A stretch of 60,431 nucleotides of DNA from Actinomycetes bacterium (GCA_021784895.1 JAJYHG010000028.1:1-60431), one strand, 5' to 3'. Counted from the stretch's first letter, positions 5,939 through 40,276 are shown. Notes: generated from the letters alone by a model not told the origin. Numbers and translations are program-made.

Positions 5939-6012
<74 letters not shown>

Positions 6013-6015
6013 CTC

Positions 6016-7994: not shown

Positions 7995-8735
7995 GTGATA
8001 GATCTCGAGACACGCAAGGCGGTGCAGGAACTCGCAAGCGACTATTGGCGTGAGCGAGTCAAGACCCCCGAGTTCAGAGCGATGGCGTCAGGCAAGGAGA
8101 TTGGGCACCGCATCGCTGACTACGTTGACGAGCACACGGCCGCGAAACTCTTCGCTGAGCTAGACGTCAAGCACGAGGTCGATAACGCTGGTCGCGTCCT
8201 GGCGCGCTCAATGGGCGACCTGTGGCTCAAGTCAAGCGGTATTTACAACCCTGTCAACGTGAAGGCTGGGATCGTTACGACCGGCCAGCCGAACCTTGTG
8301 TCATTGACGAAGCTGCTGGACCGGCTCTTGGCCCACCAGATTGACTCTTACGACCTTTTGATAGTCAAGATGAGCATCCCCGGGGTTTCTGACGATGCTG
8401 GGTCCGCGGACGAGGGCTCGACACCCGCCGACATCGGGTGTGCTGTTCATTTTGTCGACATGCTCGACTTTCTGGACCACGTCACGTTTGACGCCGGGCC
8501 GGGCCAGGTGATGCTCAAGGAGCGCGAGTTCTACCCGGCGTTAGAGTCAGGCTATCGTCCTTCTGAAAGGGGTCTACCCGAGAAGGTGACTGCATGCATG
8601 GACCTCATGGAGGATGGAATTGCCCGCCTACTGAAGAACCGCGAGAAGCGAATGGTGAAGCTTCGGGCTGAGGTGAAGGCCTTCATGGACGGCGGCGCGT
8701 TCGTGGTGAATCAGTCGGAGTTGCGGCTTGGCTGA
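7995..8735 (+). CDS. Putative type II restriction endonuclease
   Basis: GTG 7995 gives 246 residues (VIDLETRKAV); the frame is open upstream to 7860, but those residues look non-coding. The middle reads YNPVNVKAGIVTTGQPNLVS, where NVK could be the end of a D-X(n)-(E/N)VK nuclease motif. The gene overlaps the adenine-methyltransferase gene by 8 bases, the usual order in a restriction-modification pair. Assignment rests mainly on that context; no family was recognised with certainty. Confidence 0.62.
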   Translation: MIDLETRKAVQELASDYWRERVKTPEFRAMASGKEIGHRIADYVDEHTAAKLFAELDVKHEVDNAGRVLARSMGDLWLKSSGIYNPVNVKAGIVTTGQPNLVSLTKLLDRLLAHQIDSYDLLIVKMSIPGVSDDAGSADEGSTPADIGCAVHFVDMLDFLDHVTFDAGPGQVMLKEREFYPALESGYRPSERGLPEKVTACMDLMEDGIARLLKNREKRMVKLRAEVKAFMDGGAFVVNQSELRLG

Positions 8736-10413
8736 GCGCAAGGCAGCCCGTGAGGCAAAGCGGCAGCTTGGCCAGTTCATGACCCCCTTGGCGCTCGCAG
8801 CTGCGATCGTGGATGGCCTTGTACTGACTCCGGAGGCAAGGATCCTCGAACCGGCGTTCGGAGACGGCGCGTTCTTGGTCGCCCTTATCGAGCGCCTCAT
8901 GAGAGTTGGCCCTGAGGCTCCAGCAGACCGGTTTGCCCGGATCATGACCCGACAGTTGTTCGGCGTCGAGATCGACGAGGAGCTGGCCGAAGAGGCGGTC
9001 AAACGCATCGTTGAGCGGTGGGGTCCTCTGCCGGCTCAGCACAACCTGCTCACTGCCGACTTCTTTCGGGCTGAGTTCATCAACGAGAGCTTTGACCTGG
9101 TCGTCGGGAATCCGCCCTTCGGAGGTACGTTCGATCCTGCCATCGAAGATCAGCTGGACAGGCGATACGGTCGTTGGGATGGGCACAAGCTCAAGAAAGA
9201 GACATACTCCTTCTTCATCGCTCGTTCGCTGGAGCTGATCAGACCCGAAGGCACGCTCTGCTTCATATCGAGTGACACATTCACGACGATCAGCACGATG
9301 GGCGGCCTCCGGCGGCGTTTGATGGATGAGACATCCGCCTCGCTCAAGCACCTGGATTCCTTCTCTGGCGAGACCACGCAACCGTCACTTGTGTTGACGG
9401 CATCGAAGACGGGACGCTCAACCGAGCTTCACGTCGACGGAGCCGTAGTACCACGCGATGAGATCGCTCTGACCGGCAACTTCTCGTGGAAGATCGATAG
9501 CGAGATGGCGCGATATTTCCGCGGTCCCGTCCTCGCCGATTACATCGTCGCGACCGGAGGCATGACGATCGGTCGTAACGAGCTGTTCGTTCGTGACCTG
9601 GGTGAGGACGGACGGTTCACTGAGCCCTTCTCGTTCGAATTCTTCGACGATCCGATTACGCTAGACAAGGAGCTAGCTAAGGCCCGGCTCGGTCGACTGT
9701 CGCCTCGCCTCCGGTCGCGGATCGAGGAGCAGGAACGGCGCGGTGCGGTCCAGAGAAACGTGCGGGTTATCGAGCGCAAGGCGCCGTTGACTCTTGACTT
9801 TCCACATCCCGATTACCGGCCGTACAACAAGGCCAACAAAGGGATCGTGTACGCGCCGCCGCGTCACGTCATCTTCTGGCGCGACGAGGGCGATGCAGTT
9901 CTGACATTTAAGAGAAACGGGAATTGGTACCTACACGGGGTCGGCGGCCAGCCATATTTTGGTCGGGAGGGGTTGTCATGGCACCTTGTCTCGTCGAGCA
10001 TCCGCATGCGCTACCTGCCAGCTGGGTGCATACTGGACAGCGGCGCGCCGTGTGCGTTTCTTCGACCTGGAGTCGCGCGCGATGAGCTGTGGTTCATCCT
10101 CGGCTGGTGCTTGACCAAGGAGGCCACACGCATCATGAAGACAGTGCTGAACCACACCCGAAACATCCAGTCGAAGGATGTCGAGCGGCTTCCGTACCCA
10201 TGGTGGGTGGCTGAAGCAGCAAAGGCAGCGATCATCGATGCCGTCCAGAGGCTGGTGCGGTCAGCTCTCGAAGGTGCCGAGTTCGGTGCCGACGCTCCCG
10301 AGGTACGTGCTCTCGATGCGATGTTCGCCTTTGTGGCGCAGGAGGGGCGGGTAGCTGAGTGCGTGCCCGCATCCAGGACGGGCATGGATCCTGACAGTCT
10401 CCTCGCGGCCTAA
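8728..10413 (+). CDS. N6-adenine DNA methyltransferase of a type II restriction-modification system
   Basis: The product has 561 residues from TTG 8728, which overlaps the upstream stop at 8733-8735. Motif I is EPAFGDGAFL (about residues 46-55, S-adenosylmethionine binding) and motif IV is GNPPFGG (about residues 128-134, catalytic). This is the gamma-class order. The C-terminal 250 residues (HTRNIQSKDVERLPYP near residue 483) fit a TaqI-like target-recognition domain. It would methylate adenine in the site cut by the upstream enzyme. Its base composition is slightly more AT-rich than the flanking chromosome. Confidence 0.85.
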   Translation: MAERKAAREAKRQLGQFMTPLALAAAIVDGLVLTPEARILEPAFGDGAFLVALIERLMRVGPEAPADRFARIMTRQLFGVEIDEELAEEAVKRIVERWGPLPAQHNLLTADFFRAEFINESFDLVVGNPPFGGTFDPAIEDQLDRRYGRWDGHKLKKETYSFFIARSLELIRPEGTLCFISSDTFTTISTMGGLRRRLMDETSASLKHLDSFSGETTQPSLVLTASKTGRSTELHVDGAVVPRDEIALTGNFSWKIDSEMARYFRGPVLADYIVATGGMTIGRNELFVRDLGEDGRFTEPFSFEFFDDPITLDKELAKARLGRLSPRLRSRIEEQERRGAVQRNVRVIERKAPLTLDFPHPDYRPYNKANKGIVYAPPRHVIFWRDEGDAVLTFKRNGNWYLHGVGGQPYFGREGLSWHLVSSSIRMRYLPAGCILDSGAPCAFLRPGVARDELWFILGWCLTKEATRIMKTVLNHTRNIQSKDVERLPYPWWVAEAAKAAIIDAVQRLVRSALEGAEFGADAPEVRALDAMFAFVAQEGRVAECVPASRTGMDPDSLLAA

Positions 10414-10639: not shown

Positions 10640-10681
10640 CTCATAACCCGAAGGTCGCAGGTTCGAATCCTGCCCCCGCTA
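10640..10681 (+). repeat. att core copy 2
   Basis: This is an exact 42-bp copy of the tRNA-fMet 3' end. It is not a functional tRNA because the 5' half is missing. A perfect hairpin terminator (10683-10714) follows at once, so this junction may keep the original downstream flank of the tRNA. Confidence 0.93.
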
Positions 10682-16029: not shown

Positions 16030-16665
16030 ATGACCGCAAAATCACGACACGGTGATCCTCACGCTTCCGATCACGGCAGTGATTCAGTACAGCCGCTGAA
16101 CACACTCGCCTACATCGACAGCGTTCCGTTACTGGCTATCGCCGCCAAATTGGTCGGAAATAGTGTTTCCACTGCTAGCTCTGACGGAGGGAGCATCGGA
16201 TTTCAGTGGGGGGCTACATTCGAAGCACGGGTGCAAGAAAGCCGAGAGATTCAGCGCGACCTGGCGTTGTTTCTGCCTGAGGACTTGATGTATGAAGTCT
16301 ATGGCGCTATTACTCAGCGACACTCGGGCTTGCAACAAGTCAAGGCCAAGCTCACCACCGGGACCGAAGGTGGCTTTCGTCCAGGGAGCGTTGTCTCGAT
16401 CGAGGGGCGGCTCGAACGGCCTGAAGGGGCAGCTGCATGGCAGGCTGAGCGCTTCCATGGTGAAGACGCCCTTGCCGCCCAGCTCGCATCTGACGACCTG
16501 CGACTACAGGTACGAATTCCCCATGCTGCGCGAGAGCAAGCGGACGCTCTTGTCGGCGAGCCGGTAGAGCTCACCGGAATCCTGAGATGGACCCCCGGCT
16601 ATTCCCCAGGAGGGTCAGCAACCTGGAACCTAGCTCTCAGAGCGGTCGCTATCTGGCTGCGATGA
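16030..16665 (+). CDS. Unknown protein, first gene of the radical-SAM operon
   Basis: The product has 211 residues from ATG 16030. There is no signal peptide or membrane segment. It begins with a disordered, His/Ser-rich stretch, then LAYIDSVPLLAIAAKLVG and FQWGATFEARVQESREIQRDL. That start (a Y-hydrophobic-D at the N-terminus, then a channel-less alpha/beta body) faintly recalls DUF6414-type proteins, but I would not assign it. Its stop overlaps the next start (ATGA, 16662-16665), so it is translated together with the methyltransferase. Confidence 0.65.
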   Translation: MTAKSRHGDPHASDHGSDSVQPLNTLAYIDSVPLLAIAAKLVGNSVSTASSDGGSIGFQWGATFEARVQESREIQRDLALFLPEDLMYEVYGAITQRHSGLQQVKAKLTTGTEGGFRPGSVVSIEGRLERPEGAAAWQAERFHGEDALAAQLASDDLRLQVRIPHAAREQADALVGEPVELTGILRWTPGYSPGGSATWNLALRAVAIWLR

Positions 16666-17447
16666 CGGTTGACCGCGAGGTTGCCCTCCACCATGTCCAG
16701 CGGTTGCCAGCATACCTACTCGAAGCAACGCTAACGACGCTGCGCAATCTTCGCGCGCCTTTGCAACCAGCGGTCCCGTCAGACCGTGTCAGGGACTACT
16801 TCGAGGCACGCTCGGGCGACGCTGCTGACAATTTCGATGACTTTGTCGACTCGTCTGGGTCGGACTATGCCTTGCTTTACGCCCGAGCTGGACTCTCCGA
16901 GCGACTGCGGCGCTCAGATCGCGTCGTTGACCTAGGTTGTGGTCGCGCTGGCGTCCTGAAGCGGTCGCCATTTTCAGGTCGAACAGGCCCGCGGTACCTC
17001 GGATTTGACATAGACCGTGTGGCAATAGAAGCTTTGGCAGCGAGCCTGGACGGCGTGGATGGCTCGCGCCAATTTATGAGCGGCTCGTCACTCCTCGATC
17101 TGTGTGCGCATCTGCGCGCCGGCGACATTCTGCTCGCCTCCAACGTGCTGCCCTATTGCGAGGACCTAGAGGCTTCGGGTTTCCTTGCGCTCTGTAGGAT
17201 CGCGCGCGAGGTCCGCGCACCGGTGGTAGTGGTGGACCCACTCCCTGGTGGACCAACTTGGGAGTTGGCTTTCGGTGGCTTGCGGCTGGCGTACCGGACG
17301 CCCGAAGTCGTTCAGGCAGCCATCGAGGCGACTGGTCTGGCTCTTGAATCCCGCACCCGGGCGTATGCGTGTCGGATTCTTGGCAGACTCGTCGTTCCTA
17401 TCTCCTACGCCGCGATATTTTCGCCCCCTACGACCGGAGTGATCTAG
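16662..17447 (+). CDS. SAM-dependent methyltransferase (class I)
   Basis: The start at ATG 16662 overlaps the previous stop, giving 261 residues. RVVDLGCGRAGVL (about residues 88-100) is motif I; YLGFDIDRVAIEAL follows as the acidic loop that binds the ribose of SAM; ILLASNVLPYCED is motif IV-like. It would methylate a small molecule or peptide. Neighbouring GNAT and radical SAM genes point to a tailoring role in the same pathway. The substrate is unknown. Confidence 0.82.
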   Translation: MTVDREVALHHVQRLPAYLLEATLTTLRNLRAPLQPAVPSDRVRDYFEARSGDAADNFDDFVDSSGSDYALLYARAGLSERLRRSDRVVDLGCGRAGVLKRSPFSGRTGPRYLGFDIDRVAIEALAASLDGVDGSRQFMSGSSLLDLCAHLRAGDILLASNVLPYCEDLEASGFLALCRIAREVRAPVVVVDPLPGGPTWELAFGGLRLAYRTPEVVQAAIEATGLALESRTRAYACRILGRLVVPISYAAIFSPPTTGVI

Positions 17448-17450
17448 GAC

Positions 17451-18218
17451 ATGTCGCATTCGTCTCAGGCGCTGATGGCTCATCACGTGCGGTTGCATCT
17501 AGGTGGTTACTTCAGCGAGGACATCGAAATATGCCCGGGTTGGAGGTTTGCCTCATCAGCCGTAGTTCCCGACATCTATTGGAACTACGCCTACTCGACA
17601 AGCGGCGCCTCGATGACCCCAGAGGTTGAGGAAAGCATCCGCACGCACGCCTCGCGCATTTCAAGGAGCCCGGCGTGGTGGCACCCTAGTGAGCCGGGCG
17701 ACCACGCCGACAGCCTGGAAGCCTGGATGATGCTTCGGGACCTTGACGCACTACGCGAGGCGCAGACAACCACCAGTCCATGGCGACTCGCCACGAGCTC
17801 CGTGGCGAACGATGACGTACTCAGTGTGTTTGGCGACGCGTACGGTCCCGAAGGTAGCCCCGATGATGCTGGCTATTTCGAGTTGCCCCCAGCGTACATT
17901 GACGCGCTGAGAGATACGGTCCCCGAGGGCGGAGTCCGAGTCGCGCACACGGTCGCGTATCACGACGGCGAGCCTGTCGGGATTGCGTCCGTTTACCAAG
18001 AGGCGGAGGGTTTCGCTGGCCTTTACAACGTCGGCGTCTCACACGGTTTCCGCCGTCGAGGGGTGGGTTCCGCCGTGTCGGCATCAGCGGTTGCGAGAGC
18101 ACTTGACACCGGCGCAACAGAGGTGATCCTGCAGACGCCAGCATCGTCGCCCGTCGAGTCTCTCTACCGGGCGCTCGGTTTTGAGCGAGTGTTCTGCGGC
18201 GTGCTAGCCGCTCTCTGA
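17451..18218 (+). CDS. GNAT-family acetyltransferase
   Basis: The product has 255 residues and starts 3 bases after the methyltransferase stop. The C-terminal half has VGIASVYQEAEGFAGLYNVG followed by the acetyl-CoA loop FRRRGVGSAVS and SPVESLYRALGFER, standard GNAT motifs. The first 120 residues form an extra N-terminal domain (PGWRFASSAVVPDIYWNYA) seen in some two-domain acetyltransferases. Possible roles are acylation of the pathway product or self-protection. Confidence 0.82.
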   Translation: MSHSSQALMAHHVRLHLGGYFSEDIEICPGWRFASSAVVPDIYWNYAYSTSGASMTPEVEESIRTHASRISRSPAWWHPSEPGDHADSLEAWMMLRDLDALREAQTTTSPWRLATSSVANDDVLSVFGDAYGPEGSPDDAGYFELPPAYIDALRDTVPEGGVRVAHTVAYHDGEPVGIASVYQEAEGFAGLYNVGVSHGFRRRGVGSAVSASAVARALDTGATEVILQTPASSPVESLYRALGFERVFCGVLAAL

Positions 18219-18221
18219 GTT

Positions 18222-18833
18222 GTGCAGACCGTTCGTGGCAGCCGTGAAGCGCTCGTTCTAATGGGAGATTCGAGGCTGCAAGACAGACTGGAATGGCTTT
18301 TCTTGCCGCTCCTTGTAGTCGTCGCGTACGCCGCTAGCCGGGTATCGAGTGTCCTCGATGGTCTTCTCGTGGCCACCTCTCTAGCCGTGGCAGTGAGCGG
18401 GTGGATTTCCTTTCGAGCGGCTGGGCGCTCGATATACAGCGACGGGCTCTTTGCGATAGACGTGTGTCTTCTCCTAGCCTATGCACTGCAGGTGTTTTCA
18501 ATCCCGTCGCTTGGCCGTGCGCACGGTACCGGCTTGTTTTGGGGCGTATCTGCAGCGATCAATCTGCTCTACGCGGGTTGGGATTTTCGGGTGTATGTCG
18601 CGACTCGGTCGGACGGCAAGACGCACCCCGCTGTCTGCGCACAGTTTCTGCGTTTCGGAGTGATAACGCTCGTCTGCGCTCTCTGTTTCGTTGTCGTCGC
18701 CACTATCGAAACCCATCATGGGCCTGACCTCAATGGGGCTGACGTTGCTGGGTTCGCAATTTGGCTGGCTCTGCTGGGAGCCTGGCACGGTGAGCGTCTC
18801 AGGAACATCGCCGGCTCCGGCGCGGACAAATGA
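18222..18833 (+). CDS. Polytopic membrane protein, unknown
   Basis: The product has 203 residues from GTG 18222. Hydrophobic segments lie at about residues 27-42, 47-63, 78-94, 103-120, 145-165 and 172-188, so 5-6 membrane passes are likely. I recognise no family. The gene is sandwiched between the GNAT and radical SAM genes, and its stop overlaps the radical SAM start (ATGA). It could be an exporter-like or membrane anchor component; there is no ATPase partner in the operon. Confidence 0.7.
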   Translation: MQTVRGSREALVLMGDSRLQDRLEWLFLPLLVVVAYAASRVSSVLDGLLVATSLAVAVSGWISFRAAGRSIYSDGLFAIDVCLLLAYALQVFSIPSLGRAHGTGLFWGVSAAINLLYAGWDFRVYVATRSDGKTHPAVCAQFLRFGVITLVCALCFVVVATIETHHGPDLNGADVAGFAIWLALLGAWHGERLRNIAGSGADK

Positions 18834-19810
18834 CACCGGTCAATCCGAGCAATGTCGCGGCCGTTCGCGCGGCTTACGCGGCTGGCGACACTGCTGCGGC
18901 GATAGCGCCCTCCGTCTATGTGGTTGAAGTGACGAACCGCTGCAATGTCAATTGCATTATGTGTCCGCAGAGCTCGATCAATCCTGGTCGGCACCGCGAT
19001 CTCACTACCGAAAGCGCCGTTCGTTTGGCCGACTGGATCGCTCCTTACGCCGAGCTCGTCATGTTGTATTTCATGGGTGAGCCAACTCTGAACGCCGATC
19101 TGGACGAGATCATCGACATCTTTCGGAGTCGGATCGCCGGTCGCCTGGTGCTGAGCACCAATGCGGTAGCGCTCCGCGATGAAGACATCCGTCTACTCAC
19201 CGACGGACGTCTTGACCTCCTTATCGCCTGCATCGATCGTTGGGATGGTGAGGCGTACGAAGGAATCCGTCGCGGCGCGACGTTCGACGAAGTGGTGGCG
19301 AATGTGGAGGCGCTCGCGGCAGAGTGTCGGGCAACGACGACGGAGCTGTTGGTTAAGGCTCTGGACATCAAGATGCCGCTCGAGGAGCGGGAGAGATTCG
19401 TCGTGCATTGGGAGGCACATGGGGCCCGCGCACTAGTTGGGTGGCTCGACACCTGGGCGGGCCAGCGTCCCAATCTTGCGAAGCTGGCCAGCACGAACGC
19501 AGCTCCCTACGCAGCTGAAGAACGCAACGCGTGCGCGGATCTGTGGTTCAAGATGGTGATCAACGTCAATGAGGACGTTGTCCTGTGCTGTCACGACTGG
19601 AATTCGATGACCGTCCTGGGGTCCGCGCTGAGCGGTCAGTCCGTGCATCAGGTCTGGGGAGGGCGGGAACTTCAGCGACTGCGGCAGGAACATGCCCAAC
19701 GCAACTTTGGCTGTCACAAGCTCTGCCGTGGTTGTCGTGAGTGGGGTGAGTTCTCTGAGTTAGACGCTTACCTCAGTACCGACGCCGAGGGTTACTACTT
19801 GGTCTTCTGA
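18830..19810 (+). CDS. Radical SAM protein with SPASM-like C-terminal Cys cluster
   Basis: The product has 326 residues. CNVNCIMC at residues 38-45 is the CX3CX2C motif holding the 4Fe-4S cluster that cleaves SAM. YFMGEPTLN near residue 80 is the GGE-like motif. The C-terminal part has VNEDVVLCCHDW and a CX3CX2C cluster (residues 295-302, CHKLCRGC), as in SPASM auxiliary-cluster domains. SPASM enzymes mature peptides (sactipeptide/PqqE-like) or act on small molecules. Overlap with the membrane-protein gene and a 4-base gap to the next GNAT fix it in the operon. Confidence 0.87.
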   Translation: MTPVNPSNVAAVRAAYAAGDTAAAIAPSVYVVEVTNRCNVNCIMCPQSSINPGRHRDLTTESAVRLADWIAPYAELVMLYFMGEPTLNADLDEIIDIFRSRIAGRLVLSTNAVALRDEDIRLLTDGRLDLLIACIDRWDGEAYEGIRRGATFDEVVANVEALAAECRATTTELLVKALDIKMPLEERERFVVHWEAHGARALVGWLDTWAGQRPNLAKLASTNAAPYAAEERNACADLWFKMVINVNEDVVLCCHDWNSMTVLGSALSGQSVHQVWGGRELQRLRQEHAQRNFGCHKLCRGCREWGEFSELDAYLSTDAEGYYLVF

Positions 19811-19814
19811 GCTG

Positions 19815-20399
19815 GTGGTTGATTCTCGACGGGACCCGGATGGCTCGCTAGTTCGCATTCTGGCCAGCGCTTTCGCCAGCGACGGGCTCTTTCGCTGGCT
19901 TCTTGCCGGTCACGACAACCTCCAAGTAGCGTACGCATGCCGCGCTGCTTTCTTTCGGGACGAGCTTCGGTTTCGGCGAAACACCGGAGCCGTCATCACT
20001 ATTCCTGGTGGTGTCGCGCTACTGGGAATGCCGCCTAATGTGCTGATGCCGGACGATGCGCTCACCGGTCCCACAGCGGAGCTTTGGGACGACCCTGGCG
20101 GTCTCACGAGAGAGCGGTTGAACTACATGGATCTGTTGGCGAGGATGCATCCGCCGACGCCACACGTCTATCTCTCCGCGATCGGCATCACCCCAGCGAT
20201 GCAGCAGAGAGGGTGCGGAACGGTGCTGATGAAACTCGTGTGTGCAGAGGCGGCCCAGCGTGGGCGCGATCTGTATCTCGAGACTGGCAACGATCTCGTC
20301 CCATGGTACGTGCGGTTGGGTTTTCACGTGCTCGGCTCCACAAGCCTGCCATCGGCCGGGCCAACGCTGTACGGAATGGTGAGACCGCCCAACGAGTAG
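19815..20399 (+). CDS. GNAT-family acetyltransferase (last gene of operon)
   Basis: The product has 194 residues from GTG 19815, 4 bases after the radical SAM stop. It has AIGITPAMQQRGCGTVLM (acetyl-CoA loop, QRGCG) and YLETGNDLVPWYVRLGFHV, close to the pattern of the GNAT family that includes puromycin/small-molecule acetyltransferases. A self-resistance or tailoring role is inferred from the operon; the acceptor is unknown. Confidence 0.8.
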   Translation: MVDSRRDPDGSLVRILASAFASDGLFRWLLAGHDNLQVAYACRAAFFRDELRFRRNTGAVITIPGGVALLGMPPNVLMPDDALTGPTAELWDDPGGLTRERLNYMDLLARMHPPTPHVYLSAIGITPAMQQRGCGTVLMKLVCAEAAQRGRDLYLETGNDLVPWYVRLGFHVLGSTSLPSAGPTLYGMVRPPNE

Positions 20400-20789: not shown

Positions 20790-23700
20790 ATGGCTCGCCA
20801 CCGCGTACCCCCCGCCAAGACATTCGTGTCCGGACTGGAGCGCTACGACTCGTGGTCGGTCGCGCGTGGCGCCGCGGCGTTGTCGCTGTGGCCACCCAAC
20901 GCCGATCGCCACGTGGCGCTCAGAGCTCTCGTTGAAACCGTGCCTGCCCTGGCGAACGAGGTCGGTCCGGCCATCGACGCGAAGGATTGGCAGCTGTGGC
21001 TTACGAGCCGCTCGAGCAAGAAGCTTCGAGGGCTCCGCCGGGACGGAACTCATGACGAGCCGATCGCTGTCGACGCTGCGCTGCGCGGACGCCGATACGG
21101 GCTGCTCGCCGGCTCGCTTGAATCTCCGGCCCTCCAGTACAGACTCCTGATCGAAGCGATATGTGCGTGCGATCCCTGCGACGAGGATGAGCGGCTTCTC
21201 GAAGCCGTGAGCCTGCTCGAAGTTGTGGCGCTCCTGTCCGATCGCGTCACCCGACTTGCCGACCTAGGCCGCTGCCGCTGGCCAGATCACTCACTCAAAC
21301 AGAGCATCGGTGTCCCTGACGATGACGAGTATCGGCGCTTGTGTGGAGCACTCACGTTCACTCCGCAAGCCATCGCCGAGGACTCGGACCGCATTGACCA
21401 GCTCGCGCTGCTGGTTGCTGAGCATGGGGACCATCGGTGGAAACCGCTCCGACGAAACGAAGCGACGGGGGAATGGCTGGTCGCCGAGCCGTGGGGCCTT
21501 ACGCAAGCTGGCCTTGTGCGCGCCTACGCGCTTGTCGCTGGTTCAGAGCGCCGCGCCGAAGTACATAGACGGCTCGAAGCTGGAGCGCTTGAGGTAGCCC
21601 GACAGGCCGCGTGCGATATGAGCTGGAAGATCGAGAGGGTCGATGAGCGGTGCACGGTGGCGCTGGCTGACACCGACTGTCGCGTCATGATTTCGGTCGC
21701 GGCGCTACCGCCGGACACGTGGGATCTCGGCGAACCCGAGGTCGAGATCCCTGGCTCGATGATCGACCGACTCCGCGGTGTTGAGACCCAAGCTCGCGAA
21801 CAGCGCGCCCAGCTGACCCTGGCCGCGATGCTCTTTGACGGACGCACCGTCTTCGTTCCGCACGGCCTCGAGCTGTTCGAGGAACCAGATTCGACCGGGG
21901 TGTGGCTGCTCGGCCTCACCGACCTGCGGCTGCTCGGCGACGCTCTGCGCCTCGATCCGCTGGCATTGCCCACCGCACTCGAGCACGCGCCTCCCGCACC
22001 GTGGCCGGAGAACTTCGACGTTGTGGACATCGTCGGCATCGCGCATCGGGCCGAGGCCACGCCACCGGAGCAGCAAGAGATTCCGATGGATGGAACCGAG
22101 CACATGCAATGGAAGGCTCGGTTCATGTCGATGCGGCACTGCGCCCCGGGGGCTGACAACGACGGGTGGGTTGAGGTGTACCGGTGGGCGGGCAGCCCTG
22201 ACGATCGGTGCTTCACGACCGCCAACTCGGATCGGTTCGATCTCCTGGTTCGGCTTCCGGGACTCTCTGTTTGGCTGTTGTGCACTAAGCCGGATGTCGG
22301 GCCTCACGATCTCGAAGCATTCATTTGCCGCGTGCTGGGTCTATGGCTGACTCGAATGGCCGACCGCGGTTTCCCGGAGTTGTCCGAGCCCGTCGGCGTC
22401 GAGGTCGCTGCGCGGATCGATATCGAGTTCACCGAGCTGCCTGGCCCGGCGCTCGCGATCAAGCACCGCGACCATTACGCGACCCTTGTGCTCGGACCAG
22501 GCTTCGTCCACGCGCTCTGCCGGGGAGACAACGTCGCCGACCGCATGTTGATTGCCGCGGTCCTCGACGCTCTGGCAGACAGGAGCGCGGATCAGCGCCG
22601 TGAGTTCGTCGACACGCTCGCGCCTCTGGGAACCGCGACAGCCGGGATCTGGCCCTACCCCTCGTTGCGTAGCAATCCCCCGGTGATTGGTTCGCCGCCC
22701 TTGGTGCTACGCCGTGACCGTTTGGCGGTGGGGCGCGAGCTCGCATCTAGTCGCGTCAGCCCAGACACGATCGTTGTGTTGCAGGGACCCGAGTCTGCCA
22801 GTGCTCTGAACGACCTTGCAGTCGAACTTGAGCGCCTCCTGGCGAACCGAGTCACAGACCTTCGACCCGACTGCTTGTTGGAGCTCATCGAACTGCACGA
22901 AGCAGCGGCGATTCAGAACGCGAGCGAGGAAATGGGCTTGCCGGCGCGTGCCGCCATGACCGGCGCGGAATCGCACTTCGGTAAGCGTGAATCGACCGGC
23001 GAGCGCAATGTCGCACTTCGCGCGTTGATCGAACGTGCTGCGGCGAGCCGGCCACAGGGGGATCGGAAGCTCGGGCTACGTGAGGCAGGCTGGCTGCGTG
23101 CCGCAGCCGAATTGCAGGTGAGGCTCGGCGGCGTCTCGGAGTTTTTGTTGAGCGGCAGAGCGGACGCGCGGATTCTGGTCGGGCCTAGCGTCGGGGTCGA
23201 GGCGATTGTGGACGGAGATCTACCTGCTGCTACGGAACTGTTTCTCGCGCAGGTGGAGGAGGCGGCGCCGGAACTGATGTACCAGGAGTACCACGATTGG
23301 TGGAGCGCCGATCCCCGAGAGCCGACCGAGATGGCGGTTGACGAACCGATTGAACTTCACGAGCTGGTCTGGCAAGGACTGGACGATGCTTTCCTCGATC
23401 ACCAGCACGTTCGATTCGAAGAGCTTCTCCGGCTTTTCAAGGCACTCAGTCAGCTCGCCGAGCGCCAGGACAACAACGTCGGGGTCTCAGGGGTTGCCGA
23501 GCTCGTGACCACGCTGGTTGAGATGACGAAGATCGCCCGCTCCCGCGTCCATGCTGCCGTCGATCTCGCCACACTCGGCCCGGCCGAGTACAGCGCCATC
23601 CACGGCGACAATCGGCCATGGCGCTCAAACCGCGAGCGTTCGTACCTGCGTCGGCCGCTCGTCGACCTAGGCGACGGCCGGCTGGCCTGGTCAAGCACGC

Positions 23701-24254
23701 ACGTCCTCATCGCCAGCCGGAATCTGTACAAGCTCATCGAAGCAGGGCGTCTCCGTTGCCAAGGAACGCTCGCGAAGGCCGTGATGAAGGTGTCCCAGCA
23801 GCTCGACAACGAATTCGAGCAGGCCGTGATCCAGAGAGTCAGGGAAGCTGGTTGGCAGGCATGCCCGCGGGTCAGGAAGATTGCCGGGGTCTGGCTACAG
23901 CGCGAGGGGCCTACCGGCCCGGACCAGATCGGCGACATCGATGTCCTTGCCTGGCACCAGGGGTACCGGCACGTCTGGCTGCTTGAGACAAAGCGGCTGG
24001 CGCCGGGCCTGATCGCGGACTCGATGCTGCGTGACGCTGAGAAGCTCGAGGAGAGCCAGCCCCATCAACGTGAACGTCTGCAGTGGGTGCTGTCGCATCT
24101 CGACGAGCTTTCGGAGCATCTCGAGGTCGATTGCAGGGACTGGTCGGTCGCGTCGGCGACGATCATCGACAGCCCGCTAGTAGGCGCGCACCTAGCGAAC
24201 GTCGATGTGCCGATTTGGACTTTCCGCGAGCTCCCGCACCGACTCGCCGTTTGA
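20790..24254 (+). CDS. Large unknown protein with C-terminal PD-(D/E)XK nuclease-like domain
   Basis: The product has 1154 residues from ATG 20790. Most of it has no recognised domain, no membrane segment and no Walker motif. Near the C-terminus, GPDQIGDIDVLAW is followed by HVWLLETKRLA. Asp1051, then Glu1066 and Lys1068, reproduce the D-X(n)-E-X-K catalytic signature of restriction-endonuclease-like folds, preceded by a helical stretch with FEQAVIQRVREAGW as in NERD- or Mrr-type nucleases. A defence function is inferred from the nuclease and the island context. It is followed by a small gene 213 bases downstream on the same strand. Confidence 0.72.
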   Translation: MARHRVPPAKTFVSGLERYDSWSVARGAAALSLWPPNADRHVALRALVETVPALANEVGPAIDAKDWQLWLTSRSSKKLRGLRRDGTHDEPIAVDAALRGRRYGLLAGSLESPALQYRLLIEAICACDPCDEDERLLEAVSLLEVVALLSDRVTRLADLGRCRWPDHSLKQSIGVPDDDEYRRLCGALTFTPQAIAEDSDRIDQLALLVAEHGDHRWKPLRRNEATGEWLVAEPWGLTQAGLVRAYALVAGSERRAEVHRRLEAGALEVARQAACDMSWKIERVDERCTVALADTDCRVMISVAALPPDTWDLGEPEVEIPGSMIDRLRGVETQAREQRAQLTLAAMLFDGRTVFVPHGLELFEEPDSTGVWLLGLTDLRLLGDALRLDPLALPTALEHAPPAPWPENFDVVDIVGIAHRAEATPPEQQEIPMDGTEHMQWKARFMSMRHCAPGADNDGWVEVYRWAGSPDDRCFTTANSDRFDLLVRLPGLSVWLLCTKPDVGPHDLEAFICRVLGLWLTRMADRGFPELSEPVGVEVAARIDIEFTELPGPALAIKHRDHYATLVLGPGFVHALCRGDNVADRMLIAAVLDALADRSADQRREFVDTLAPLGTATAGIWPYPSLRSNPPVIGSPPLVLRRDRLAVGRELASSRVSPDTIVVLQGPESASALNDLAVELERLLANRVTDLRPDCLLELIELHEAAAIQNASEEMGLPARAAMTGAESHFGKRESTGERNVALRALIERAAASRPQGDRKLGLREAGWLRAAAELQVRLGGVSEFLLSGRADARILVGPSVGVEAIVDGDLPAATELFLAQVEEAAPELMYQEYHDWWSADPREPTEMAVDEPIELHELVWQGLDDAFLDHQHVRFEELLRLFKALSQLAERQDNNVGVSGVAELVTTLVEMTKIARSRVHAAVDLATLGPAEYSAIHGDNRPWRSNRERSYLRRPLVDLGDGRLAWSSTHVLIASRNLYKLIEAGRLRCQGTLAKAVMKVSQQLDNEFEQAVIQRVREAGWQACPRVRKIAGVWLQREGPTGPDQIGDIDVLAWHQGYRHVWLLETKRLAPGLIADSMLRDAEKLEESQPHQRERLQWVLSHLDELSEHLEVDCRDWSVASATIIDSPLVGAHLANVDVPIWTFRELPHRLAV

Positions 24255-24467
24255 CCGCCGCGTTGACGAGCGCCCTAGCGAGAGCGTCAGCAGACCCCTT
24301 TCGGTCGGTCCGCCAGCGGGATACCATTCGGATTGCGCTCCCGCTAGGGCGCTCCGTAGGGGCTGAGTCCCAAGCACTCACGTCCCGCCAACCGGAAAGC
24401 GTCAATGACGACTTGCGGATGTCACCTCGCGCGGTGGGCTTGGGACGCTGCGGAAGAGGAGACCAAA

Positions 24468-25181
24468 ATGGCTGATCACAAGAGCAGTAACCGCAATGAG
24501 CAGCGCCTCGCGCGTGCGCTTCAGAAGCAGCGTGGGATCTCATACATGCAGGCACTACAGGCAGTGCGAGCGGGCCAAGCAATGCGACAGATACCCGTCG
24601 AATACCAGTTCGTCGCCGCCGTGGTCGAGGACCTTCGGCGTAGCGGCAGGGCCGGCGCGGCCGAGGCTGTGCTCCGCAGTCGCAGCGCGGACTCCTTCCA
24701 GGACCGCAGCTCGCTATCGAAGGACTCGCGCGACCTCGTGCAGCTAGCGAACCACGCCATGAAGTACTGGGCGATCAGTGGAATGCGACAGATCGAGGAG
24801 CTAGAGCTCTGCGAGCAACCCGATAACTGGATCCCGATCGACAACCTCCAGGGCACAGCGATGTTGGATCGTGTGCTTGGTGAGTGGCAAGAGGCGCTGA
24901 AGTCGCGAGCCGAACCCTCACTGCGTCGCCTGCCGGTACGGCGCGAGCGGGTCATCGAAACCCTCGCACAGATTCAGCTCGCGATGCGCGCGACATCTCA
25001 TCTCGAGACCGCAACCGACTGGACCCCGGACGCGCTCCGATCCGCCGCAACTGCTGCGGACCGGTTCGGTCGGGGCCTGGCTACCGCGTTCGGCAGCGGA
25101 ATAGTTCTCGCGATTCCGCCCGCGGTAACGGATGCTTTGGCAGCTATGCGGGAGCCGTTGCGAGCGGGACGACTTGTTTAG
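24468..25181 (+). CDS. Unknown helical protein downstream of the large nuclease
   Basis: The start is ATG 24468, with a GGAAGAGGAG ribosome-binding site just upstream, giving 237 residues. The N-terminus (RNEQRLARALQKQRGISYMQALQAVR) resembles a short helix motif seen at the start of several mobile-element proteins. The rest is predicted mostly helical and soluble. I do not recognise a family. It may be a partner of the 1154-residue protein; the 213-base gap means it could also have its own promoter. Confidence 0.6.
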   Translation: MADHKSSNRNEQRLARALQKQRGISYMQALQAVRAGQAMRQIPVEYQFVAAVVEDLRRSGRAGAAEAVLRSRSADSFQDRSSLSKDSRDLVQLANHAMKYWAISGMRQIEELELCEQPDNWIPIDNLQGTAMLDRVLGEWQEALKSRAEPSLRRLPVRRERVIETLAQIQLAMRATSHLETATDWTPDALRSAATAADRFGRGLATAFGSGIVLAIPPAVTDALAAMREPLRAGRLV

Positions 25182-25216: not shown

Positions 25217-26062
25217 TTAACTCAGCAGCGCATCAATGAACTGAGCGACGGCCGCAACGGCCGTCGCTCGGAGCTGCGGCTCGAGCATGCTGGGATCGAC
25301 AAGCAGACTCTGCGATGCGAACCCGGCTGGGCCCTGGCTGGACGTGCCGAAGAACCGCGCGCGGATCTCTTGAAAGGTCGATCGGAGCGGTTCAATGTGC
25401 GCCGCGAGATCACCCGATCCGAGCTGATTGGCAGCCTCCGATGGGCCGCCAGCGCGGTTGTAGAGGAGCACGAAGACCAGGTCGTAGTAGTCCTTTTCTG
25501 CGCCTCGTTGTCGGGCTGCGACCGATTTCGACAGGAGGTATCCCTCGAGACCCGCGAACCGGGCCCTGACCCGGACCTGACCGTGAGCTTCCAGCTCGGC
25601 CGTGAGCTCTCGCCACACCCAGTCTTGCGTGACATAGCCGGTGCCGCGGAGGTTCATCGCTCGCAGGGTTGCGCAGCCAGCAAGCGGGATCAGCGCTTCG
25701 GTTCGCTCGGTCTCGAGGTCACAGAGGAACTCGAGTTTCATCGCGATTCCGTCGATGGTTCCGCGCCATCGCCAGCCGCCTTGCCCAGGTATGGGCTTGA
25801 AGCCCGTTGCGGTCAACGCTCGCTCGAGTTCGACCATTTCAACGCGTGAGTCGAGATGGGCGGCGACAAGCATGTCGACATCCGTCGTGCCGAGGTGTGT
25901 GGGGCCGGCTTCGTGACCTTCGGTCAGGACCTCGGGCAGCAAGCCACCGAGGACGATCAGCGGGATGTCCTCATTGTCGAGGCGATGCACGAGCGTGACG
26001 AGTGCCTTCTCGGCACGTGCTCGTCCCGCCGGGGATCTGTCCTCCTCGAGATCAGCGGACAC
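25217..26062 (-). CDS. AbiEii-like nucleotidyltransferase (toxin candidate)
   Basis: The product has 281 residues. PLIVLGGLLPEVL, then LGTTDVDMLV (residues 36-67), is the GG...TXDXD signature of the nucleotidyltransferase fold. KDYYDLVFVLLYN is a later motif typical of AbiEii-type proteins. It begins 14 bases after the gene for the AbiEi-like fusion (26077-27882) on the same strand, the type IV antitoxin-toxin order. A toxin role is inferred. The sequence is far from the classic AbiEii at 29743-30636. Confidence 0.72.
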   Translation of the reverse strand: MSADLEEDRSPAGRARAEKALVTLVHRLDNEDIPLIVLGGLLPEVLTEGHEAGPTHLGTTDVDMLVAAHLDSRVEMVELERALTATGFKPIPGQGGWRWRGTIDGIAMKLEFLCDLETERTEALIPLAGCATLRAMNLRGTGYVTQDWVWRELTAELEAHGQVRVRARFAGLEGYLLSKSVAARQRGAEKDYYDLVFVLLYNRAGGPSEAANQLGSGDLAAHIEPLRSTFQEIRARFFGTSSQGPAGFASQSLLVDPSMLEPQLRATAVAAVAQFIDALLS

Positions 26063-26076
26063 GATGCTTGTTCGCC

Positions 26077-27882
26077 TCAGAGGGCCCGGTCTCGCATGAA
26101 CGCGAGCTCGGAGGTGTAGAGCGACAGCGGCGGAGCGAAGAAGTCGAAGAGCTCGAAGAGCGGCGAGACCAGCGCTTCGACGAGCGGCGGCAGGCGGTCC
26201 TCGATCTCCTCGGGGGTCGCCTGCACATAGGTCGAAATCTCATCCTGATGTGCGATCCGCCCCGGCGGCATGAAGTGCTTGGGCGACGTGATCGATCTCA
26301 GCTCTCGGCCGTCTAGACCGGTCCAGTGCACGAGGAATCTAATCCTCGGCGCAGATACGTAGCGAGCCATGCGGGAGGCATGAAGGAGGCACTCACCGAC
26401 ACGCCAGATCGGAAGAGTGAGGTCTAGGATCGAGCCTGGCTCACCCGTGATCTCGTCCTCCTGATACCCACGGAGCAGAAACATCCGAACCCCCGGCTCG
26501 GCCCGCCAGAAGTCGGCGTGCCCAGCTTCGGTCAGGGCGTTGTCCTTTATCCAGCACTCGATGCCGTCTTCGCGCGGCTCCGGGCGTATGTCGTCTCGGG
26601 TCGGGACCCACCAGGCAGGCCACCCAGTCTCGCGGCCTTGTGACTGGGTCAAGGCGGTCTTCAGCTCGGTAAGCGAAAGCGACGAGCCAATGGCCGTGTA
26701 TGCGACCGACCATGCGCCGGCTGAGTACACGGTCGGTGCCAAGCCGAATTCGTGCTCGACCCGCTCCCGAAGTTTTCGCCGACCGGCACCGTCCAGATCG
26801 ACGAGATCACTCGAGGGTCTACGCCGGCTGGTCGCGCGGTGCTGGGGGACGATGACCTCGTCTCGCAGATGAGCAGCAGCTTCTTCGCCGCGCCCGCCCA
26901 GCGCGCGCAAGTCCGCGAACACGCGGGCTGAGCTCACGATCGGCAGCTCCTCGACCCGTGTCACAAGATCGAACATCATGGTCCCACCGCTTCGGAACTC
27001 GATCCGCCCGCCCTCGGAGACCTCCGAAACCGAAGCGTCGGCCAGCGCCTGTGTGAGGGCACCCGTGAACTGCGAGTCGGGAACGTAGATCTGCAACGAG
27101 GGGACCGCCGTCGTGAACGGCGCGAGTTGCTCGGCGGCCGCCCACCCAGTGACAGCCCATTTGACGTGACGGTCCAAAACCGGTCCGAGCTCCAGGCGCA
27201 AGAACTCGATTGGGTCGGTGAAGATTCGCTCGGCCAGGCGGCGGCGTTGTCGCTCCGAGGCGACCTCTTTCGCCCACGCGTCGAGTAGGCCGTGGATGTC
27301 TGCGAGCTCGCGGCGGGATTTGGGACCTCGCTGTGGCCCCCATTTCGCCGTCCACCCTTCGGCATCGAATGCCTGCAGTACCTGAGAGACCTGCGGTGGC
27401 GACCAGCTTGTCAACTCAGCCAGCTCCGTCGTGCCAATCCCGGAGCTCCAGCCCCGGCTCAGCACCGTCTCGGCGATCGATAGAGCCGACGGCGACCAAG
27501 AGAATTCGCCGCCGGTCGTGTCAGGCTGCGTCTGAACGGAGTCTCGAGCCACGAGAATGCCGTCACCGACGATGTGGGCAGCACCGCTGCCGTCGGCCCA
27601 GTTGGCGCCTAGCTGATCGAGAAACTCGATTGAACCTGGCGAGAGATGACGAGCGACCAGCACCAGGTCTGGCGGCCAATCTTCCTCGAACGATCCGGTC
27701 ACGCGGCGAACGTCCGCCGGCCAGCCCGCTCCCGCCCACAGCGCTCGCACCTCATACGAAGTGGTTGGCGTTCGCAACACGAACCGTTCCGTCGGCGTTA
27801 GTGCGTCGTCGCCGATAGGCTCGACGACTGCTAAGCCGTCGAGTGCGCGGCCGAGTATCGACTGGGCGGGTTTTTCGTTCAT
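26077..27882 (-). CDS. AbiEi-type antitoxin fused to a C-terminal domain known from AlbA_2 proteins
   Basis: The product has 601 residues. Residues about 130-180 form a winged helix (TTELAELTSWSPPQVSQVL). Residues about 240-345 match the AbiEi core, including ARVFADLRALGGRGEEAAAH. Residues about 400-545 (PAWWVPTRDDI, HADFWRAEPGVRMFLLRGYQED, TGLDGREL) resemble the sensor-like C-terminal domain I associate with AlbA_2/Schlafen-type proteins, here without the ATP-binding part. Ordinary AbiEi proteins are about 250-300 residues. The start is ATG 27882, just downstream of the inverted repeat 27888-27912. It is upstream of the nucleotidyltransferase. Confidence 0.68.
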   Translation of the reverse strand: MNEKPAQSILGRALDGLAVVEPIGDDALTPTERFVLRTPTTSYEVRALWAGAGWPADVRRVTGSFEEDWPPDLVLVARHLSPGSIEFLDQLGANWADGSGAAHIVGDGILVARDSVQTQPDTTGGEFSWSPSALSIAETVLSRGWSSGIGTTELAELTSWSPPQVSQVLQAFDAEGWTAKWGPQRGPKSRRELADIHGLLDAWAKEVASERQRRRLAERIFTDPIEFLRLELGPVLDRHVKWAVTGWAAAEQLAPFTTAVPSLQIYVPDSQFTGALTQALADASVSEVSEGGRIEFRSGGTMMFDLVTRVEELPIVSSARVFADLRALGGRGEEAAAHLRDEVIVPQHRATSRRRPSSDLVDLDGAGRRKLRERVEHEFGLAPTVYSAGAWSVAYTAIGSSLSLTELKTALTQSQGRETGWPAWWVPTRDDIRPEPREDGIECWIKDNALTEAGHADFWRAEPGVRMFLLRGYQEDEITGEPGSILDLTLPIWRVGECLLHASRMARYVSAPRIRFLVHWTGLDGRELRSITSPKHFMPPGRIAHQDEISTYVQATPEEIEDRLPPLVEALVSPLFELFDFFAPPLSLYTSELAFMRDRAL

Positions 27883-27958: not shown

Positions 27959-29461
27959 ATGACATTACGGCGACTGAAGGTCGAGCAAGGATCGCGCCCC
28001 ACCTTTCCTGCATGGCCTGAGCCGACTGATAAGGAGCGCGGGGCTCTATTTGCCGGCCGTGCGCGCTATCGCCGGCTGACGATCCTGCTCGACGAAGACG
28101 TCCTGTCAAACGCAGATCTCTTTAGCTGGGGGAAGGACGCGTTGTTGGCGGGGCTGCTCTCGATCGAGCTGATCGATTGCTTTCAATATGCCGACGCCGG
28201 TCCGTCCAACTACATCGTCAGACAGAACGATGAGCACATGGGCAGTTACGTGCCTGGTTGGGTGGTGCTCGAGGCCGACGCTGGCACCGGCATACGAGGA
28301 GTACGGACAGCAAAGCCAGGGCTCATCAGCGACACCGCAATATCCGGCAACCTCGCCGAGATCGCTGCGGCCGACTCAACAACCAGCGCTTACACCGACT
28401 TGCCCCCGAGTGACGCAGCTCACCGCAGGAGGAACGACGCCGTCGCCTTGCAGGTTGCAGCTGCGATTGGTGCCGACCTCTTCATCACCACACGGCCGTA
28501 CCTCTACGAGAAGCGGTGGGGCATGGGCGGTGGTGTCACGCTGGTCGGCGTCGACGACGCGCTCGCAATCATCGGGCTCTACCTGCGGGCCCAAGGTCGC
28601 TACGTGACCTGGCGAGGAGCCGACGGCCGGGGCACGTCGACGATGAATCGCGGTCTGTTCTACTGGGTGGGCACGCGAGAGCTCCTGCCGGCGGCTTGGC
28701 GATGGTTCACAGCCTGTCTGCAGCATTCACACGGTGGGGGCGACGAGCGTCTCGTCTTCGTCGCACAGTCTGTCCTGCAACGCACTCAGCGCGCGATCCA
28801 GGCGCGCGACGACTTGCACGTCGCATTGAATAAACCACCTGACAACGACACGGCTGAGGAGGCACTCGCGGCGATGGACGTCGTGCTGTTGCTCCTGATG
28901 GGTGCCGTCGACGGAACGGCGCGCGTGGCGCACACGACCCTGCGTCTCGCGAGCGAGCCACACAACAGCGGCTGGCAACGACGGCGACGATGGCTGCGCG
29001 AGGTAGCGGATCACTCGTCGGAGCTTGCTGACCTGTTCATCACAGACACCGACCAGTGGAACGTGCTTACGATCCTCCGACTCCTCAGGAACGCGATCCA
29101 CGGTGAGGCGCTGCAACCACTCGCCGTTGGAGCCGCGCATCACCGCGAGCGAACGCTCGTAGGACTACCAAGTGCGGATACGGGCGAACTCATGACGGCG
29201 ATCGACGCGCTAGGCGGCGGCGCGATGTGGGGCGTCGAATCGTTGATACCGGGAAGCCTGCACTTTGAGCCCGGGCAGCTCATCGAGGAGCTGTTCCCGC
29301 GAGTACTCGCGCTACTCAATCGCGTCATGGAAACGACACCAGTAGAGCAACTGAGCCACGTAGCACTCAGTCCCACTGACAGTCTCCCACCACGGGATAA
29401 CCGCTTTGAAACGTTCGGCGACGTGAACCGCCATAGCATTCGTTGGCAGCTCGGCCTGTAG
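27959..29461 (+). CDS. Unknown 500-residue protein divergent from the AbiEi-like operon
   Basis: ATG 27959 is preceded by an AAGAGGA ribosome-binding site. There is no membrane segment or signal peptide. Residues about 155-175 (NDAVALQVAAAIGADLFITT) have a PIN-like look. Near residue 380, RLLRNAIHGEAL resembles the short RN-X-X-H helix ends of HEPN-like domains, but spacing differs from the catalytic R-X4-6-H form. Neither is enough to assign a function. Shared intergenic DNA suggests common control with the AbiEi-like gene. Confidence 0.6.
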   Translation: MTLRRLKVEQGSRPTFPAWPEPTDKERGALFAGRARYRRLTILLDEDVLSNADLFSWGKDALLAGLLSIELIDCFQYADAGPSNYIVRQNDEHMGSYVPGWVVLEADAGTGIRGVRTAKPGLISDTAISGNLAEIAAADSTTSAYTDLPPSDAAHRRRNDAVALQVAAAIGADLFITTRPYLYEKRWGMGGGVTLVGVDDALAIIGLYLRAQGRYVTWRGADGRGTSTMNRGLFYWVGTRELLPAAWRWFTACLQHSHGGGDERLVFVAQSVLQRTQRAIQARDDLHVALNKPPDNDTAEEALAAMDVVLLLLMGAVDGTARVAHTTLRLASEPHNSGWQRRRRWLREVADHSSELADLFITDTDQWNVLTILRLLRNAIHGEALQPLAVGAAHHRERTLVGLPSADTGELMTAIDALGGGAMWGVESLIPGSLHFEPGQLIEELFPRVLALLNRVMETTPVEQLSHVALSPTDSLPPRDNRFETFGDVNRHSIRWQLGL

Positions 29462-29742: not shown

Positions 29743-30636
29743 TCAGTCCTCCCAGACGGCGGAGGCCGGGTTCCATCTGCCGGCAGCGGTGCCGCCGAAC
29801 AGCGGCTCGGCGAACGGTCTCACGATCCCCAGGGCCTCGTCGAGGTTGTGTGCGATCGGCAGTAGGGACTTGGTTGCGGTGGCCGCATAGCCGGGCGTCC
29901 ACAGGGCTCGGTCCTCAACGTCGAAGCGTGTCGGTGGCTGGATCGCGCGGCGTTCAAGCTCAGAGTGCAGGGCGGTGAGCTGTTCGGCTGCAGGGATCGA
30001 CGCGGAGGTGACGATCGCTACGAGGTCGACCAGGTCGCGGAAGCGGGTTGATGGTGCCTCCCGTGTTCCGTAGCGCTGAAGGATCGCGGCGATCTTGTCG
30101 GCGACGTGGTCGACAAGCGGATACGCGCGGTAGCCCTGCTGCTCGATATCGGGGATGGCAATGCGCGCCAGGGCGGGAACGTCGTCAGGGTCGCCGGTCA
30201 TCTTGACGTCAGAGCCGACCAGGTCCACATGAAATCGCGCCCACTGCGCGGTACCGAGGTGCGCAATGACCGGGACGCGTGCGCCCTCGGTCCCGGACTC
30301 GATGATCTGCGTGTTGCCGAGCTCGAAGCGAAACCAGTCACCAATATCCGCGGCGGCGGCGGCCCGGAGGTCGGCTAGGGCTTGCTCGCGTGCTCTGTTG
30401 CGGTGAACATCTATGTCGAGGCTCCCGCGAACGCCGATCTCGCGTGCGAGCAGCGCGGTTGCGCCCTTGAGGATCCAGTCCTGGTCGTTGAGGTACAGGC
30501 GCGCAAGCAGGCGGTCGTACGCGAACTGGCGCTGCAGCTGAGGCAGGTTCCAGGGGCTTGTCTTAGCGAGGTTCTGAAGCCTTGAGGTGAGCGCTGCACG
30601 GAACGCCGCCGGCGACCTGTAATGGCGGCTGGTCAC
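29743..30636 (-). CDS. abiEii: Type IV toxin AbiEii, nucleotidyltransferase
   Basis: The product has 297 residues, the usual size. KGATALLAREIGVRGSLDIDVHR near residues 58-80 is the nucleotidyltransferase motif (LKGATAL, then DxD). DHVADKIAAIL and FRDLVDLVAI are conserved AbiEii helices. It overlaps the antitoxin gene by 4 bases (ATGA, 30633-30636). Family members block growth by transferring nucleotides to an RNA target and act in phage abortive infection. A dead paralogue is at 52432-52928. Confidence 0.86.
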   Translation of the reverse strand: MTSRHYRSPAAFRAALTSRLQNLAKTSPWNLPQLQRQFAYDRLLARLYLNDQDWILKGATALLAREIGVRGSLDIDVHRNRAREQALADLRAAAAADIGDWFRFELGNTQIIESGTEGARVPVIAHLGTAQWARFHVDLVGSDVKMTGDPDDVPALARIAIPDIEQQGYRAYPLVDHVADKIAAILQRYGTREAPSTRFRDLVDLVAIVTSASIPAAEQLTALHSELERRAIQPPTRFDVEDRALWTPGYAATATKSLLPIAHNLDEALGIVRPFAEPLFGGTAAGRWNPASAVWED

Positions 30637-31460
30637 CGGTGATCACCAACCGCGCTTTGTGTTTCCTCCCAGCCACCCGGATCGGGATCGCGCCTGGATG
30701 CTTGGGGTATGAGGCTGTTGCGGGCCTCCTGTAGCCAACGTCCGCTATCTGGATGGTGTACGAGGTCTAGGAGCCATGCGAGCAGCGCGAGGCCGTCGTG
30801 GCGACGCAGCCCGAAGCGTGCCGCCGACGGGGCGAGCGACCTGGCGAACGTCGCCGGGTAGTCGTAGACCTTCTCGATCGAGGCCGTGATGATCTGTGCG
30901 ACTGCCTCGGGGTCTTCGCTGTCGAGCAGGAGATCGGCGGCTATCTCTGAGGGGCGGGTGACCGGGAGCCCGCCCATCTCGATCCACCTGCCGGGTCCTT
31001 CCCGTCGGACGTGAAACCGTACGCCAGGCTTGCGCGACTGCCGTCGTCTGGGGACGGTGAACTCGTGCCGGTCGGCGGGCAGATCACCTACGCCATACAC
31101 CGAAGCGGCCGAACGGTGCGAAACGACGCCTTGATCGATCGTGCGCCGCCAGCGCTGCACATCAGGTGCCAGATGCAGCCAGGCTGCCCTGAGCTCCACA
31201 TGGTCGGGCACCGGGGCGCCGGCGAGCCGGTAGACCCCTGTATCGACGCGTTCAAGCGATGTTGCGGCAACGAGCCGTTCGAACGTGGCACGAGGAACCC
31301 CAGCAGTCTGCGCCTGCTGGCGCGTGACCAGCCCCCACTGGTCTTCAGCAACGTGAGCCAGGCGAAGAAGAGGCGGAGTTCGCACAGCTGTATCGCATTC
31401 TACATCCGTTAGGGTAGTAACTGCAGTATCTCGTGCTGGAACCGCTGCGAAAACCATCAT
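30633..31460 (-). CDS. abiEi: Type IV antitoxin AbiEi
   Basis: The product has 275 residues. LVTRQQAQTAGVPRATFERL (residues 43-62) is the N-terminal winged helix. RSAASVYGVGDLP and VTRPSEIAADLL are conserved AbiEi landmarks. The C-terminal domain follows with helical repeats. The start may be ATG 31460 or 31457, inside a palindrome (31455-31468), or further downstream near residue 20-30. It acts as transcriptional repressor and neutraliser of the adjacent AbiEii. Confidence 0.84.
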   Translation of the reverse strand: MMVFAAVPARDTAVTTLTDVECDTAVRTPPLLRLAHVAEDQWGLVTRQQAQTAGVPRATFERLVAATSLERVDTGVYRLAGAPVPDHVELRAAWLHLAPDVQRWRRTIDQGVVSHRSAASVYGVGDLPADRHEFTVPRRRQSRKPGVRFHVRREGPGRWIEMGGLPVTRPSEIAADLLLDSEDPEAVAQIITASIEKVYDYPATFARSLAPSAARFGLRRHDGLALLAWLLDLVHHPDSGRWLQEARNSLIPQASRRDPDPGGWEETQSAVGDHR

Positions 31461-40161: not shown

Positions 40162-40203
40162 CTCATAACCCGAAGGTCGCAGGTTCGAATCCTGCCCCCG
40201 CTA
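40162..40203 (+). repeat. att core copy 3
   Basis: This is an exact 42-bp copy of the tRNA-fMet 3' end. The three following bases (CTC) match the tRNA copy but not copy 2. It forms the right end next to the integrase and perhaps the left end of a further element. Confidence 0.93.
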
Positions 40204-40276
40204 CTCACGAACTCCCTGGAAATCTCGGGGAAAGCAGAGCCTCGGAGATCCGGGGCTCGCTTTGTTTCAGGGGTTT

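Follow-up and report, generated by a model that had tools for sequence, protein, structure and literature searches.

A divergent Upx-family protein with a C-terminal PD-(D/E)xK nuclease domain on a tRNA-Met island of an Actinomycetes bacterium

A long reading frame with a C-terminal nuclease site

The window, by which we mean the whole stretch of 60,431 nucleotides analysed from an Actinomycetes bacterium (GCA_021784895.1 JAJYHG010000028.1:1-60431), contains a rightwards-transcribed open reading frame that starts at an ATG codon and encodes a protein of 1154 aa (20790-24254, + strand). It is followed on the same strand, after a 213-bp gap, by a gene for a 237-aa protein (24468-25181), and the codon-position GC of both (GC3 of 0.75 and 0.72, respectively) is that of real genes.

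The C-terminal end of the larger protein is a PD-(D/E)xK nuclease domain (residues 992-1150; 23763-24239, + strand), as judged from the secondary structure of an AlphaFold2 model and from its structural neighbours. The catalytic residues D1051 (23940-23942), E1066 (23985-23987), and K1068 (23991-23993) lie in the sequence context GDIDVLAWHQGYRHVWLLETK, and the site that the initial annotation placed here holds up well, as all three are identical in each of 60 aligned sequences, window protein included. G1048 is likewise present in 60/60 and D1049 in 58/60. In a 50-row alignment just eight columns are invariant (G1048, D1051, E1066, K1068, E748, R948, P956, and G108), and since four of these belong to the nuclease motif, its conservation goes far beyond chance. 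In the model D1051 is on a strand (1050-1056) adjacent to that bearing E1066 and K1068 (1061-1068), with flanking helices at 992-1019 and 1076-1088, all with high pLDDT. A restriction-endonuclease fold near the C-terminus, on which the initial annotation had made its nuclease call depend, is thus present in the predicted structure, and XisH, AF1548, Cdn1, Can2, McrC, and archaeal Hjc rank among the closest structural matches to residues ~1004-1154 in VIA-align (Z 7.2-9.7), together with a Pyrococcus repair endonuclease.

A composite island at a tRNA-Met gene

The two genes lie within an insertion at a tRNA-Met gene (5939-6013). A 45-bp exact attachment repeat within the 3' end of the tRNA gene (5971-6015, + strand) recurs at 40162-40206 (+ strand), adjoined by a tyrosine integrase gene (38709-39914, - strand; Pfam Phage_integrase, 4e-33), and a 42-bp exact internal copy (10640-10681, + strand) divides the insert into segments of 4.7 kb and 29.5 kb. 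The region 5971-40206 is a composite tRNA-Met insertion, in which a 29.5-kb element sits beside a 4.7-kb one with an Eco57I/N6-methylase-like gene. The nuclease gene is in the 10640-40206 segment, as are transposases and two AbiE-type loci: an AbiEi/AbiEii type IV toxin-antitoxin pair (29743-31460, - strand; Pfam AbiEii 3e-16, AbiEi_4 1e-8) and a second AbiE-like pair (25217-27882, - strand). The latter consists of an AbiEi_2 antitoxin-like gene (26077-27882; Pfam AbiEi_2 5.5e-6) and a gene for a small protein (25217-26062) with no Pfam match, which is presumably the toxin of the pair. Facing the AbiEi_2-like gene is a gene for a 500-aa protein (27959-29461) with no Pfam or PADLOC match, the middle of which (DAVALQVAAAIGADLFITTRPYL) looks PIN-like by eye. 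Elsewhere on the island, a run of methyltransferase-like, GNAT, membrane, radical SAM/SPASM, and GNAT genes (16587-20399) is possibly a small cluster for a modified peptide or other natural product.

Two congeners (L091, G368:C1, and L090, G369:C1) have kept the right flank of the island at 76-82% identity, and their tRNA-Met-type repeats enclose other inserts, with an AbiE-like pair in one and another integrase in the other. The presence of different cargo at the same tRNA-Met-type site indicates an integration hotspot in the genus. Integrative elements have been described as Upx carriers (PMC12824646), and Upx has been found almost exclusively in one PAGI-1 hotspot (PMC12629846).

Among 145 other genomes from this bacterial family none has a close homologue of the nuclease, and a sensitive profile applied across the class (399 genomes) matched members of the protein family in 3 other genomes. 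The gene is therefore accessory and patchily distributed; homologues mainly in core genomes, which the initial annotation had regarded as counting against a defence role, are not what is seen, the gene being carried on a mobile island.

Membership in the Upx family

Upx is a single-protein bacterial anti-phage defence that has a DNA-cutting enzyme at its C-terminal end. The 1154-aa sequence on its own has no match in Pfam or by phmmer against the PDB, and no close relative in scans of genome and viral contigs. Searched alone against family models it matches NCBIfam NF042954 (Upx) over residues 942-1070 only (E 2e-6, 25.3 bits) and PADLOC Upx (PDLC02221) over its C-terminal part only (1e-4). 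The full protein was reached from this C-terminal match by way of relatives: three homologues came first and, once aligned with the window protein, led to further loci. One of the three is from an Acidimicrobiales genome (P0006) and two are from Deinococcus plasmids (P0001 and P0003), and the Upx model covers most of each sequence (E 1e-32 to 1e-50). Their alignment with the window protein found 61 further loci in many phyla, including archaea, the proteins of which are mostly 1170-1310 aa and align with the family profile over their entire length; the A1 profile, in which the window protein is included, also matches the relatives at full length. All 40 family proteins scanned, the window protein among them, have an Upx match in both NCBIfam and PADLOC. 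The curated NF042954 cut-off is 1900 bits, so the window protein is no 'equivalog' in NCBI's narrow sense, and the relatives that match this model at full length (110-170 bits) are likewise below it.

Structure prediction and Foldseek comparison, the route that the initial annotation had proposed for the N-terminal 1000 residues, gave a confident model and an unambiguous neighbour. AlphaFold2 run on the full-length protein with 50 sequences returned a mean pLDDT of 82.2 and a pTM of 0.81, and in Foldseek a single PDB entry, which also ranks first, matches significantly: 9wuf (E 5e-37, TMq 0.72), released on 2026-02-11 under the title 'Cryo-EM structure of Upx'. VIA-align superimposes 1044 residues of the model (4-1151) on 9wuf at Z 27.2 and 15% identity, the next row having a Z of 9.7, and a profile of the window protein and 49 relatives (A3) matches positions 10-1209 of 9wuf with an E of 1.7e-257. 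The agreement of these three full-length comparisons shows that the protein has the Upx fold end to end, and it is almost certainly a deep, fast-diverged member of the family. The original description of a large body with a terminal nuclease, of a kind common in anti-phage systems, is borne out by the Upx fold and the mobile island; its further statement that the protein has no other known domain is not, as almost the whole length corresponds to Upx.

Divergence from other Upx proteins

The window protein shares with Upx (NF042954, PDLC02221, 9wuf) the full-length fold, the size class (1154 aa versus about 1240-1272 aa), a C-terminal GD(I/V)D...ExK nuclease, a probable single-gene organization, and a mobile-island setting, but is only 14-23% identical to every aligned relative, and lies far below the NCBI equivalog cut-off. 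It has the longest terminal branch among the 60 sequences (2.82 versus a median of 0.74), with unsure placement. It also differs at 9 of the 37 columns in which at least 86% of the family agree, the most of any member (median 2), with replacements that include D86, L147, E871, G873, E1078, and H1093. None of the nine is a catalytic residue, and the lost residues may reflect an altered trigger or activity. The highest identities (20-23%) are to three Acidimicrobiales relatives (L013, L037, and L020) that align at full length; these group with other Actinomycetota, whereas the window protein falls outside them, on a long branch of unsure placement. Can2/Cdn1, XisH, and McrC resemble the nuclease fold of residues ~1004-1154 (Z 7.9-9.7) but have only this domain in common with the window protein, the rest of which aligns to Upx.

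A further, apparently non-catalytic restriction-endonuclease-like fold

Domain model matches place a second, apparently non-catalytic restriction-endonuclease-like fold at residues ~262-410 (21573-22019, + strand). Residues 112-446 of the full model match the nuclease part of Nt.BspD6I, and residues 96-455 folded alone give a pLDDT of 83.8 and a pTM of 0.86. The best match of this separate model is Upx (Z 20.5), followed by EcoT38I, R.BspD6I, FokI, Can2, and others with the same fold at Z 7-8.7, values of which those below 8 can reflect a common arrangement, in a match list that is largely of one fold. The matches to EcoT38I, R.BspD6I, FokI, and Can2 are carried by residues ~262-410. The likeness to the catalytic domains of Nt.BspD6I, the R.BspD6I small subunit, EcoT38I, and FokI is thus in the fold of this region (Z 7.6-8.7), and the difference is that the Upx family has no conserved catalytic set there: a single acidic column is well conserved (D296, in 40/50 sequences), there is no conserved E-x-K in the region, and any (D/E)-x-K occurs in just 17/50. 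To judge from these columns, the region is probably not a catalytic site.

Neighbourhoods of Upx relatives

The initial annotation had also suggested examining the neighbourhoods of homologues, and these include defence genes. Gabija genes adjoin Upx relatives at two loci (L051 and L040). The relative at L036 has as neighbours type I R-M genes (an R subunit also at L041) and a class II Argonaute together with the gene associated with it, and an Avs2-family protein and a TIR-type protein are encoded beside those at L003 and L020, respectively. Many more defence models match among 144 neighbours of the relatives, a count that is to be read qualitatively.

At L036 (1013-13239) the genes form a tight same-strand run of a type I specificity gene, the class II Argonaute and associated gene, the Upx-family gene, and a type I R subunit gene, and the gene order of L038 and L041 resembles it. 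In a Pyrinomonadaceae genome (L024:5808-13186), one full-length Upx-family gene is followed in tandem by another after 6 bp. At two loci the Upx-family protein is encoded in two adjacent frames (L032:4998-8669, 752+452 aa; L075:6088-9803, 259+979 aa), which may mean that body and nuclease have separated naturally, or else reflects frameshifts.

The downstream gene and alternative readings

The reading frame of the 237-aa protein opens at 24405 (258 aa), and the ATG at 24468 is its likely start, hence 237 aa, because GAGGAG is located eight bases upstream. Its leader (24322-24467, + strand) is part of a stretch (24322-24556) comprising leader and first codons. Contig C234, from the same genome, has a copy of this stretch at an unrelated gene, with 81% identity over 236 bp. 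The C234 copy (L092:5834-6069) is near a contig end, with an OLD/AAA-like ATPase gene upstream on the other strand, and the two copies have the appearance of a recurring cassette of leader plus N-terminal segment. No family match above cut-off was obtained for the 237-aa protein, and no homologue is present in viral contigs or in 145 genomes of the family.

The initial annotation had proposed this protein as the partner of the nuclease, and a two-gene system in which it serves as regulator, adaptor, or antidote would fit with the genes being adjacent, on the same strand, and found nowhere but on this island, with neither present in relatives. However, none of the other Upx-family loci encodes a homologue or has any conserved partner gene that we could find, the canonical Upx of PADLOC and NCBIfam is one protein, and the gap separates the two genes; moreover, the duplication of the leader before a different gene suggests that the 237-aa gene is a separate, mobile transcription unit. 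We conclude that it is probably not the partner, and consider the two-gene system quite improbable. Similarly doubtful is a more elaborate proposal, of an Actinomycetota-specific Upx sister branch with a changed trigger surface (having lost D86, E871, E1078, and H1093) that recruited the 237-aa protein as a co-factor to give a two-component Upx.

Another reading, unlikely but worth weighing, is of a stand-alone sequence-specific restriction enzyme that constantly cuts unmodified DNA, with its methylase encoded elsewhere; the PDB depositors named 9wuf_A 'Restriction endonuclease', the protein contains the second restriction-endonuclease-like fold, and there is an Eco57I/N6-methylase-like protein at 8728-10413. 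This, though, is the nearest methylase match, genes within several kb either side of the nuclease gene having none, and it belongs to the other sub-element, separated from the nuclease gene by 10 kb that include transposases and an attachment repeat. Each type II methylase model matches just 2 of the 144 proteins encoded next to relatives, which argues that there is no obligate methylase. The longest branch in the tree and the nine changed columns could alternatively mean that the protein is what remains of an Upx in decay or put to another use, and no longer has a defence role, but we regard this as decidedly improbable, as 1154 codons remain open with normal codon-position GC, all catalytic residues are retained, and the full-length fold is confidently predicted. 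A DNA-repair or housekeeping nuclease, to which the resemblance of the domain to Hjc and the Pyrococcus enzyme might point, was already disfavoured and is very improbable in view of the island location, the lack of a close homologue in the 145 family genomes, the defence neighbours of relatives, and the Upx fold.

Proposed mechanism and implications

Upx membership by fold and profile, an intact invariant catalytic site, a location on a tRNA-Met island with an integrase, and a patchy occurrence are shown here, and as a whole we read the gene, with good confidence, as very probably encoding a divergent one-gene anti-phage Upx protein that joins a body of several domains to a metal-dependent PD-(D/E)xK endonuclease at its C-terminus. 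The large body would detect infection or, in the uninfected cell, hold the nuclease idle, and a signal that phage has entered, whether a protein or DNA of the phage or some DNA structure, would relieve this. The freed nuclease would then cut DNA, most likely that of the phage, and replication would stop; the N-terminal non-catalytic fold may help to hold DNA or form an oligomer. The activation step is a guess, as apt to be wrong as right, because a literature search found no published Upx mechanism, nor a paper on 9wuf.

The Upx family reaches much deeper than its curated models: the 60 aligned sequences span at least ten phyla, with archaea among them. Annotation pipelines would give the 1154-aa protein no name. 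The alignment shows the few residues that never change in the family, and any mechanism for Upx must account for the non-catalytic restriction-endonuclease-like fold in its N-terminal half.
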